The notes beneath the pieces were generated by a model that worked only from the letters and a program-made list of their open reading frames with translations, was not told the origin of the DNA and searched no databases. DNA of 64,000 nucleotides from the NCBI RefSeq assembly GCF_004214895.1, contig NZ_CP035952.1:4908501-4972500 (forward strand), read 5' to 3'. A program made the translations under genes and the position numbers. Below, piece after piece: positions 1 through 63,622 of the stretch. The number at the start of each line of letters is the position of its first letter. Positions within the stretch are counted from its first letter, which is position 1. This DNA comes from Pseudomonas tructae. GTDB taxonomy: Bacteria > Pseudomonadota > Gammaproteobacteria > Pseudomonadales > Pseudomonadaceae.

Positions 1-27
1 CTATATCGATTATCCGCGGCTGTAAAA

Positions 28-93
28 GCATCGCGGGGCAAGCCCACACAGAGATGGGTGAAATCCTGTGGGAGCGGGCTTGCCCCGCGATGA
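28..93. repeat. REP pair (inverted copies)
   Basis: A REP core (GTGGGAGCGGGCTTGCCCC, followed by GCGATGA) reads on the plus strand at 68-93. A partial copy in the opposite orientation (ATCGCGGGGCAAGCCC) lies at about 30-45. The same core recurs at 9155, 32275, 32417, 37581 and 39237. It is a dispersed extragenic palindrome of the type common in the P. putida/fluorescens lineage. Confidence 0.85.
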
Positions 94-97
94 GCAT

Positions 98-815
98 AGG
101 TATCGACACATCTCTAGCGAGTCAGCCTATTGGCTCTTGATAGGCGTGCTTAACCCGTTGATGTGGCGAGGCTGCCGGCCCCTTCCGCCCTTACGGCGGC
201 TCACTTTTTTCTTGGAAAAAGTGAGCAAAACCGCTCGCTCAACCATCCGGCCCTGCGCTGCGCTCCGGGTTCCCTCCTTACGCACCGACTCCGGGGGCCG
301 CGCCGAAGGGACATCCATGTCCCTCGGCGCTTTGCGGCCCATCCATGGGCCTGCACCCCCTCCATCAGTGCTCCACTCGGCCTCCTGAAATCGCGAAAAA
401 ATCAAAAGCCAGATCAACAGCACAATTCGCTTCGCTCTTGCTGGCTGAGGTCGCACACCACATTTGTGTTCACACCGCGCTGTTGATCTTGATCTTGATC
501 TGCAGCGACTTCAGTAGGCCGAGTGGAGCACCGATGGAGGGGGTGGAGGGCCATGGATGGCCCGCAAAGCGCCAACGGGCAGGAAGCCCGTGTGGCGCGG
601 CCGCCGGAGTCGGTGCGTAAGGAGGGAACCCGAAGCGCAGCGTAGGGCCGGATGCAGGAGCAGGCGGTTTTGGTTCCTTTTTGCCAAGACAAAAGGGACC
701 CGCCGTAAAGGCGGAAGGGGCCGGCAGCCTCGCCACATCAACTGGATAAGCACACGCAGACCAACCCTGAGCCATCTTCATAGATCGGGATTAGAGATGT
801 GTAGATACCTATGCC
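98..815. repeat. Large imperfect palindrome with covarying hairpins
   Basis: No gene is supported here. The left arm (98 to about 424) is repeated in inverted orientation at about 478-815. The ends match over about 22 bases (98-118 starts GCATAGGTATCGACAC; its complement occupies 793-815 with one difference). Long stretches are nearly identical between arms, for example GATGTGGCGAGGCTGCCGG. Each arm also contains local hairpins (200-225, 301-329 and 336-351 on the left; 672-700, 570-597 and 548-563 on the right). Where the arms differ inside these hairpins, both sides of the stem have changed together. The short reading frames in it mirror each other between the arms and are by-products of the repeat. 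I know no name for the element. Confidence 0.8.
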
Positions 816-827
816 GCGATGAGGCCC

Positions 828-1670
828 TCAAGGCCGGGTGTTGATCTGCTGTTGCAGGTTCTGCACCTGGCTTTGCAGAGTGTTGATGTTGCGGGTCACC
901 TGCCCCCGAAACGCATCGAACTCCGCCGTCGATGCACCGCTTGCGGCCGCAGGTGCCGGACGGTTTTCCTGTTCGCTCTTGAGCACGATCAAGTCCTGCT
1001 CCAGGCGCTGAATCGCTGCCGCGGGATTGCCCTGTTTCTTCAACGCCGCGACATCGCCACCGAGGCTCTTGAGCTCACCCTCGAGCTTGCCACCATCCAC
1101 CTGCGCCGCCTTCAACGCTGCCAGCTCAGTGCCCACCGCTTTCAACTGCTCCTGCAACTGCGTTTGCAGCTTGGCGTTGGCCGCCTGTTGCTCGCTGGCC
1201 TGGGCCAGGACCTGCTCCAGGCGTTTGCCCAGATCGCCCGTCTGCCCGGCCACGCCCTGCTGTTGCTTGCCCTGCTCGCTAAGGCTCGTCTGCAACTGCC
1301 TGATCTGCAGCTTCAGCGCCTCGCTGTCGGTGCTGACACTGCTCTCGCTGGCGGCAACCTTGCCACTGATCGCCTGCAGGCGCCCCGCCGCGTCTTCACT
1401 GATGCGGGCAAAGCTCTCCTGGGTGGCAACCAGTTGCTGCTCCATCAGGGAAATCTGCTGAAAACTCCACCAGCCAAGGCCTGCCAGGGCAATGAACGAG
1501 GCGCCGAGCAATGCCCACAGCGGGCCGGTGCTGGCCGACTTGGGTTGAGCATGCGCAGCTGCCGGACCGCCACGTCGCACCCCCGCTACCGGGACGAAAT
1601 CGTCGTCATCACGGCTGCCGGCACTCAAGGTCGGCACGTTATCGAAATCATCTGGAGCATCGTTACGCAT
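828..1670 (-). CDS. Membrane-anchored coiled-coil protein of unknown function
   Basis: A 280-residue protein with an acidic, disordered N-terminus (DDDDF near 21-25). One hydrophobic segment covers about residues 50-70, and a long Gln/Ala/Leu-rich heptad region runs from about 75 to the C-terminus. This predicts a bitopic inner-membrane protein with a periplasmic coiled coil. The start is supported by GAAGGGA upstream of ATG. I do not recognise a catalytic domain; pseudomonad homologues are sometimes labelled ATPase, but no Walker motif is visible. It lies downstream of the SDR gene on the same strand with an 87-bp gap. Confidence 0.75.
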   Translation of the reverse strand: MRNDAPDDFDNVPTLSAGSRDDDDFVPVAGVRRGGPAAAHAQPKSASTGPLWALLGASFIALAGLGWWSFQQISLMEQQLVATQESFARISEDAAGRLQAISGKVAASESSVSTDSEALKLQIRQLQTSLSEQGKQQQGVAGQTGDLGKRLEQVLAQASEQQAANAKLQTQLQEQLKAVGTELAALKAAQVDGGKLEGELKSLGGDVAALKKQGNPAAAIQRLEQDLIVLKSEQENRPAPAAASGASTAEFDAFRGQVTRNINTLQSQVQNLQQQINTRP

Positions 1671-23889: not shown

Positions 23890-24032
23890 TGTCGATCTCT
23901 CCTAATTGTGGTTTTCATCGACCGGTATCGACACCGGCGGGTTGATGCATGCGGCGTAGCCGCTCGTAGCCCGCAGGGCGGACCACGCATGTAATGTCTG
24001 GTGCAAATCACCAGAAACCTTGCGGTGACCCA

Positions 24033-24061
24033 TACATGAGGTCGCTAAGGGCAATTACAAG
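24033..24061 (-). promoter_or_regulatory. Sigma-32 heat-shock promoter of groESL
   Basis: On the minus strand CTTGTA, 14 bases, then CCTCATGTA, close to the RpoH consensus CTTGAA-N(11-16)-CCCCATNT. It lies about 145 bases upstream of groES. No CIRCE repeat was seen. Confidence 0.7.
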
Positions 24062-63056: not shown

Positions 63057-63264
63057 GGCACGCTTATAAGGAAATCCCTTACAGATCGGAGATTTAGCGC
63101 ACACAGAGAGGATACAAGGACAATCCGGAAGGGATTTTGACGAAAAAACTCAAACCCACTCATACGGATAGCGAGCGAAGTTAAAGTAATTTATTAAGAG
63201 TAAGAATTTTTCGGTATTACGAAGGCTCATCTGCTATCGATTCAAGCAGAAGGAGGGAAAAGGT

Positions 63265-63622
63265 GGAGAGTCGATCTGTAAGCCGGGTTCTGTCGAGGAC
63301 AGTCATTCCTCTACGACGGCCATCACTGGACGCCTTTAGCAACCTACCCGGTTCCAACGCGGGCCGCGCCATATGGAACCCTATTTGGTCTTGCTCCGAG
63401 TGGGGTTTACCTAGCCACGAACTGTTACCAGTCGTGCGGTGCGCTCTTACCGCACCTTTTCACCCTTACCGGCACCGAAGTGCTTAGGCGGTTATTTTCT
63501 GTGGCACTTTCCGTAGGCTCACGCCCCCCAGGCATTACCTGGCACTCCGCCCTATGGAGCCCGGACTTTCCTCCCCCCTCTATTGCGGAACAATAGAAGG
63601 CAGCGACTGTCCAATCGACTCT
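63265..63622 (-). ncRNA. rnpB: RNase P RNA (M1)
   Basis: About 358 bases of bacterial type A RNase P RNA, the ribozyme that matures tRNA 5-prime ends. The 5-prime end reads AGAGTCGATTGGACAGTCGC. GGAGGAAAGTCCGGGCTCC (CR-I) and GTGCCAGGTAATGCCTGG follow, and the 3-prime end reads ACCCGGCTTACAGATCGACT. The terminal segments are complementary (helix P1). Coordinates of the ends are accurate to a few bases. It lies between rsmI and mraZ, as in other pseudomonads. The stretch 63057-63264 shows no gene. Confidence 0.96.

Follow-up and report, generated by a model that had tools for sequence, protein, structure and literature searches.

A transposable palindromic repeat of Pseudomonas that probably carries RsmA/CsrA-binding TwoAYGGAY RNAs

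CsrB, RsmX, RsmY, and RsmZ are dedicated sRNA genes. CsrA/RsmA proteins bind short hairpins that show ANGGA in the loop, and one protein dimer can take two such motifs (available text of PMC7366521). The TwoAYGGAY RNA family is known from the human gut, gammaproteobacteria, and Clostridiales (available text of PMC2864571), and a link between it and CsrA was proposed earlier from motif searches (available text of PMC4333381). The family has been listed since 2010, and in the accessible parts of this literature its function appears only as that motif-based proposal. The accessible text of PMC2864571, PMC4333381, PMC11701678, and PMC4383904 mentions neither mobility nor Pseudomonas repeats for this family. 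Titles and abstract openings, subscription papers and supplements aside, gave nothing matching RsmA decoys on mobile elements, miniature inverted-repeat transposable elements (MITEs), or Pseudomonas repeats. Already published, then, are the TwoAYGGAY family and its CsrA link; the mobile palindromic setting and the sister core described below were not found in print.

The window, by which we mean the whole 64-kb stretch of DNA analyzed (G000:C1:4908501-4972500), comes from a single-contig genome of 5.69 Mb. An earlier note on this DNA had described a palindromic element of ~720 bp at positions 98 to 815. When the window was compared with itself by BLAST, no listed minus-strand match in the 64 kb was stronger than that of the segment from 146 to 753 to itself (E 1e-137, 81% over 615 columns). 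The palindrome was thus present, but the ends of the element, as given by its target duplication, are 95 and 813. In the related genome G007 the site is empty: the left flank (88% identical) reaches window position 94, the right flank (87%) starts at 814, and the two are contiguous with a 10-bp overlap. Because the 10-bp sequence CCGCGATGAG is single in G007 and double here, the element is 719 bp long. The segments 94-116 and 792-814 are 96% complementary. The outer features are as follows.

29 to 92, no strand: REP pair, arms 29-45 and 76-92 (17 bp, 100% complementary); its tail is the insertion target
85 to 94, no strand: target-site duplication, left copy, CCGCGATGAG; one copy at the G007 empty site
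95 to 813, no strand: non-autonomous transposable element, 719 bp, with terminal repeats and target duplication
95 to 116, plus strand: left terminal inverted repeat CATAGGTATCGACACATCTCTA, 22 bp
792 to 813, minus strand: right terminal inverted repeat, 22 bp
814 to 823, no strand: target-site duplication, right copy, the second copy of CCGCGATGAG
146 to 178, plus strand: left inverted end of the inner, palindromic repeat, resembling by eye the GTACATATCCGTTGCTGCGGTAACGGC ends of the G017 repeat
721 to 753, minus strand: right inverted end of the inner, palindromic repeat, partner of 146-178
395 to 504, no strand: palindrome centre with a short TTGATC repeat

We take the 29-92 pair to be REP, in line with its likeness to the other insertion sites of the element. 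The inverted repeats of about 22 bases that the earlier note had seen beside REP sequences are the terminal repeats listed here, and its suggestion of a non-autonomous mobile element was borne out by those repeats, the 10-bp duplication, and the empty site. The comparison of empty and filled sites that it had proposed gave the single 10-bp copy in G007, and hence a target-site duplication. The element sits between converging frames, a 349-amino-acid (aa) frame on the plus strand ending at window position 25 and a 280-aa frame on the minus strand ending at 828. A coding role was set aside, as all eight overlapping open reading frames (80 to 109 aa) lacked a Pfam match at E 0.01. With terminal inverted repeats, a target duplication, and no transposase gene inside, the element has the makeup of a MITE.

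Matches to the element, fragments included, lie at 13 places in its own genome. Five of these copies, the window copy among them, were tested with both ends, a copy split by an IS-like insertion (L020/L024) being left out; four have identical 10-bp flanking repeats (CCGCGATGAG, CTCATCGCGG, CCCATCGCGG, and CCGCGATTGC), and in the fifth the repeats agree at 2/10 positions. For 31 end pairs from named genomes the agreement was 10/10 in 11, 9/10 in 8, and ≤8 in 12. Because the duplicated 10-bp repeats are REP tails in either orientation, REP is the insertion target. That REP is part of the element was ruled out: its tail is the duplicated target and varies among copies, and the ends barely vary. 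Nor is the element a REPIN, defined as two inverted REPs moved by a RAYT, since it ends in CATAGG... and the REP tail is the duplicated target. Carriage by a plasmid or phage was also rejected, there being no blastn match in the plasmid or phage collection. The element has moved, and its mobility is firm.

Outside Pseudomonas, L142 in Bradyrhizobium and L176 and L179 in a Caenispirillum bin hold short elements (87 to 341 bp) whose ends are related (CTAGGG...) and whose 10-bp direct repeats are perfect.

Among 298 Pseudomonas genomes, 12 contain the end GGTATCKACACATCTCTA with ≤1 mismatch. The 22-bp end in the window is 88 to 91% identical over 22 to 25 bp to ends beside IS4-like transposase genes at L139, L210, and L211. 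At L211, in a planctomycete bin, such an end adjoins a 432-aa transposase (Pfam DDE_Tnp_1) whose top NCBIfam match, under the model's cut-off, is the IS4 family; on the opposite side of this IS only the first 13 bases are in common, and the direct repeat is 9 bp. C-terminal transposase pieces abut the 22-bp end at L139, L206, and L210; the L139 piece has matches to IS4 models under the cut-off, and the L133 genome has 8 places that match it. At the Pseudomonas locus L216 a 371-aa frame shows 40% identity to the L211 transposase, but the locus was rejected as a full-length Pseudomonas partner, as no good end lies next to this frame; no complete Pseudomonas IS was obtained.

Searches of the element's own genome with the L211 transposase, the L139 fragment, or NF033590 found no autonomous partner; the L139 search included a genome known to match, and the L211 search had no such positive genome. 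We infer from the shared ends that an IS4-like transposase is the mobiliser, and since no such transposase was found in this genome, the element looks stranded there. Blastn against L211, L139, L210, and L216 gave, beyond the ends, only two weak matches of 13 to 24 bp to the element. With no convincing likeness beyond the 22-bp ends, its interior does not appear to derive from the compared IS sequences.

The arms of the palindrome match Rfam family RF01731 (TwoAYGGAY), the left on the minus strand at 294-359 (43.4 bits, just above the cut-off of 43) and the right on the plus strand at 542-602 (32.1 bits, under the gathering score of 43). Other Rfam matches in the window, Pseudomon-groES at 23921-24035 and bacterial RNase P class A at 63263-63622, both on the minus strand, are ordinary. 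The features of the arms are as follows.

281 to 373, minus strand: left-arm TwoAYGGAY core, Rfam match 294-359
336 to 351, minus strand: left hairpin 1, loop AUGGAU
301 to 329, minus strand: left hairpin 2, loop AUGGAU
200 to 229, minus strand: left hairpin 3, of the GCTCAC..GTGAGC type met in homologues
185 to 199, plus strand: left hairpin 4 CCGCCCTTACGGCGG, a terminator-like site facing transcripts that come from the left
526 to 617, plus strand: right-arm TwoAYGGAY core, scoring 93.1 bits against model R1, which has it among its seeds
548 to 563, plus strand: right hairpin 1, loop AUGGAU
570 to 597, plus strand: right hairpin 2, loop AGGAA
672 to 700, plus strand: right hairpin 3, GGTTCC..GGGACC type
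699 to 715, minus strand: right hairpin 4, a terminator-like site facing transcripts that come from the right

Tandem AYGGAY loops are thus found in the left arm only, the right having AUGGAU and AGGAA. Each arm alone folds into the family shape (z of -4.46 left and -2.84 right). The window genome gave at least 11 RF01731 matches (150 of 210 first-look candidates were scored); the 11 listed are all inside copies of the repeat, and 6 of them are over the cut-off.

The hairpin stems lie where the earlier note had placed them. Its claim that the arms diverge inside three hairpins, by paired changes, held for hairpins 2 and 3, but hairpin 1 differs by a single compensatory pair. In one alignment of 95-394 with 505-813, mismatches occupy 9/29 columns of hairpin 2 (570-597), 7/29 of hairpin 3 (672-700), 2/16 of hairpin 1 (548-563), and 17/176 of the remainder up to 753; they are most frequent outside the palindrome, in the outer ends beyond 753 (23/65). 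Within the palindrome, then, it is mainly in hairpins 2 and 3 that the arms have drifted apart. A perfect palindrome would fold with its two arms paired; such pairing is also predicted for the full-length RNA (-537 and -554 kcal/mol), with hairpin 2 alone extruded, because the arms differ there. We infer that the difference between the arms may preserve local hairpins or guard the DNA from loss.

Model R1 was built from ten cores of the window genome (set A2, with L005 omitted). In A2, 5/35 pairs have double changes, and the 13 double-change cells (shuffle mean, 3.8) were reached in 0/500 shuffles. An R1 search gave 78 matches (68 distinct, 4 R1 seeds included) in 55 of 72 sources, the other 17 being without a match. 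In these matches 93.6% of cells pair, versus 66.6% when shuffled; double changes occur in 33/35 pairs and in 587 cells, versus 185; and the covariation score is 0.642, versus 0.164, with 0/500 shuffles as high. Since R1 alignments are fitted to structure, 51 of the 78 matches, thinned by hand, were also aligned with MAFFT, which is blind to structure (set A5); RNAalifold predicted 24 pairs, of which 19 have double changes. A broader model, R2, made from set A3, gave 37 matches over 28 sources outside the genus, with double changes in 35/35 pairs. Hairpin 3, found by a loose pattern in 63 of the 78 R1 matches (39 distinct instances), keeps all six tested pairs in 38 of the 39, and several positions vary. 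The earlier note had reported that this third hairpin keeps its pairing with different bases, had read the paired changes as selection on the fold and possibly as a structured RNA family, and had proposed a covariance model of homologues as a check. All of this agrees with the wider homologue set, which excludes chance, and with the structure-blind alignment. These sequence comparisons firmly indicate that the RNA fold is selected.

GGA is present in both loops of all 68 distinct genus sequences, a figure that is partly built in because all R1 seeds carry GGA and bias the matches; the stems of the seeds were nearly as uniform as their loops, yet the stems varied among the matches. Outside the genus GGA is in loop 1 of 37/37 sequences and in loop 2 of 33/37, the remaining 4 having CGA. 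Several ANGGA loops are typical of sponge RNAs, and each arm here has two GGA loops, though right hairpin 2 is AGGAA. The window genome has four CsrA-family matches. The arms are therefore good candidates for RsmA/CsrA-binding RNAs.

RF01731 was found at E 0.001 in at least 211 of 298 Pseudomonas genomes, in at least 185 over the cut-off, with at most nine candidates scored per genome, a number often reached. Of 321 genomes sampled across the class, 20 had it, the window genome among them, and 14 control genomes had none. That cores are usually paired was refuted, for 32 of the 55 sources with an R1 match have a single core. Neighboring cores mostly face outward and are of different subtype. 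The close pairs in the R1 set comprise 20 divergent loci (21 rows, L087 and L278 being one locus), 2 tandem, and 0 convergent; a second set has 9 divergent (L236 being locus L084 of the R1 set) and 3 convergent with weak scores; and a third has 6 divergent, 2 convergent, and 2 tandem. These counts are not prevalences, as some loci were fetched for showing paired matches. The idea that cores are never convergent was refuted by convergent GGA-core pairs at L256-L258 (G023), L302, and L308, and also by L328. In 0/21 R1-set rows did either arm have its partner as closest relative, a result that near-identical copies of whole elements make easier to reach; arm-arm identity in these rows ranged from 0.51 to 0.91.

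The palindromic repeat has ends of its own. Seven aligned copies in G017 have a TACATATCCGTT...CGGTAACGGC end on one side and its inverse on the other, and 146-178 and 721-753 look like a relative of these ends; no target duplication was seen by eye at the G017 ends. Because the inner repeat has its own ends, two mobile layers are likely. Core-less versions are 117 bp in the window genome (L026) and 153 bp at two P. rubra loci.

IS-like insertions were seen in copies of the repeat. One kind, with the end TGAACTGCCCCCCGAATGTTGGAC, lies inside the CCGCCCTTACGGCGG hairpin at L020/L024 (G000:C1:2993201-2994859) and L054, in two genomes, and copies L003, L004, L005, and L009 of the window genome have an apparent scar of this type of end. 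A second kind (CACATAGGTAACA or a close relative) interrupts copies L011, L067, L073, and L255, in three genomes.

We propose, with a probability of about 0.6, a two-layer mobile element, that is, an IS4-like-mobilised MITE carrying a palindromic repeat of RsmA/CsrA-binding TwoAYGGAY RNAs. The outer layer would be a MITE that an IS4-like transposase moves in trans, recognizing CATNGGTATCTACACATCTCT ends and duplicating about 10 bp of target, mostly within REP tails. The inner layer would be the Pseudomonas palindromic repeat, each arm of which, read outward, would encode a TwoAYGGAY RNA with two GGA hairpins that would jointly suit a single RsmA/CsrA dimer. Since the arms point away from the centre, a transcript crossing the element would contain one sense copy whichever side it came from and whichever way the element was inserted. 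The arm RNA would be made by read-through or from an internal start, would most likely bind RsmA-type proteins, either in cis at 3' ends or as a minor decoy in trans, and may benefit the host or the element. The predicted arm-to-arm pairing of the full-length RNA and the AGGAA of right hairpin 2, which departs from ANGGA, weigh against this proposal, as do the four CGA loops outside the genus. A generic sigma-70 consensus scan of window positions 1 to 1000 gave 0 promoter-like sites (0.3 expected), and an internal promoter was set aside as a candidate. The same 1,000 positions have 6 terminator-like sites versus 1.0 expected, one of them at each entry to the palindrome, ahead of the arms (185-199 on the plus strand and 715-699 on the minus strand). 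Because such sites guard both entries, read-through from neighbors may halt before the arms, and if the terminators are functional, the arm RNA would require a start inside the element.

It is possible, if doubtful, that such elements are widespread mobile decoys: palindromic repeats that would give RsmA/CsrA-catching RNA from either side, with arms of different subtype that avoid perfect mutual pairing and with an exchangeable GGA or GNA core, the GNA class being absent from Rfam. The GNA core was seen in 12 of 19 folded segments (from G007, G015, G024, and G025), in which three hairpins, their loops mostly GNA, lie between the same arms and GGA is missing from the core; the other 7, from G023, are GGA type. 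R3, a model from ten sister cores (A6), found this core in 100 of the 298 Pseudomonas genomes, 53 of which also have RF01731 and 47 the sister only, so that at least one of the two cores is present in 258/298. G015 holds both kinds, and the window genome has a sister core at L333 (G000:C1:2833401-2833518). The 51 sister matches (48 distinct) have double changes in 29/38 pairs, a score of 0.450 versus 0.168, and 64 G-U versus 26 A-C cells. None of 16 scanned loci gave an Rfam match to the sister core; a seventeenth, L256 (G023), is GGA type and had no Rfam match at E 0.1 either. The sister core is probably a new structured sister of the TwoAYGGAY core on the same platform and is a candidate for an RNA class new to Rfam. 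The Pseudomonas sRNA P24 (RF00629) lies at L331:2125-2379, ~200 bp from a sister-repeat pair.

As the sister repeat, with the same arms, has a core free of GGA loops, the platform is not sustained by RsmA binding, which should not be read as the purpose of the whole repeat. The rival explanation that survives best, although we consider it unlikely, draws on this point: the repeat would be selfish only, its hairpins aiding its own movement or its tolerance in 3' regions through termination or transcript protection, and GGA would serve the element, not RsmA. A GGA-less core that is multicopy in the same arms fits such a repeat, as do a hairpin 3 that keeps its pairs through base changes, the excess of terminator-like sites, and a site between converging frames, given the tail-to-tail bias reported for Pseudomonas fluorescens repeats (available text of PMC2718517). 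However, the loops keep ANGGA or AGGA while the stems vary freely across Gammaproteobacteria, and termination requires no loop sequence.

The next rival, that the hairpins act as single-stranded DNA read by a transposase in REP/RAYT or IS200/IS605 fashion, is consistent with the palindrome and the REP at its border, and with the GCGNAGC loops of the sister core, which resemble very stable DNA mini-hairpins. Yet on the GGA strand G-U cells are in excess over A-C cells, with 117 versus 19 in A3 (75 versus 19 without the commonest G-U column), 60 versus 7 in A5, and 30 versus 1 in A2, and a small excess outside the genus (54 versus 37); the counts are of cells, which are not independent of one another, and the tolerance of G-U by both RNAalifold and Infernal is a bias in the same direction. 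DNA hairpins or RNA from the opposite strand predict parity or reversal, so the asymmetry favors a fold that acts as RNA from the GGA strand, and the ends with 9- to 10-bp duplications fit a DDE transposase. We regard the DNA explanation as very improbable; of the earlier note's choice between RNA and single-stranded DNA, the selected folded form stands, narrowed toward RNA. That the arms are merely a duplicated ordinary repeat with compensations by chance is scarcely credible: in the ten A2 cores shuffles reached two of five measures (the number of double-change pairs in 30/500 and further pair types in 342/500), but this reading is refuted by the covariation among homologues, by the structure-blind alignment, and by the fall in paired cells of the R1 matches from 93.6% to 37 to 43% when the partner was slid 1 to 3 columns.

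If the two-layer element is as we propose, transposable elements possibly supply binding sites to the Rsm network, which acts as a switch for secondary metabolism. A multicopy mobile repeat in most sampled Pseudomonas genomes makes the function of TwoAYGGAY testable in ordinary laboratory strains, and the GGA and sister cores on one platform are comparable natural swaps.

Several known systems resemble parts of this element. In TwoAYGGAY (RF01731) two adjacent hairpins with AYGGAY loops lie beneath a common stem, as in the left arm; the available descriptions do not present the family as a dispersed repeat, often in outward-facing pairs, inside a transposable element. The sponge RNAs CsrB, RsmX, RsmY, and RsmZ have hairpins exposing ANGGA (available text of PMC7366521), like both arms, whereas here the hairpins belong to a multicopy mobile repeat with no known promoter. 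With candidate IS4-family IS and their MITEs the element has in common a 22-bp end and a 9- to 10-bp target duplication; it differs in that its cargo is a palindromic RNA repeat, in having no further likeness to the IS sequences compared, and in that no such transposase was found in its genome. REP/REPIN and the R-family repeats of SBW25 are intergenic, high-copy inverted repeats (available text of PMC2718517), like this repeat, and R200 (320 bp) or R178 of SBW25 could be part of it. In contrast to REP/REPIN, REP serves here as the target.
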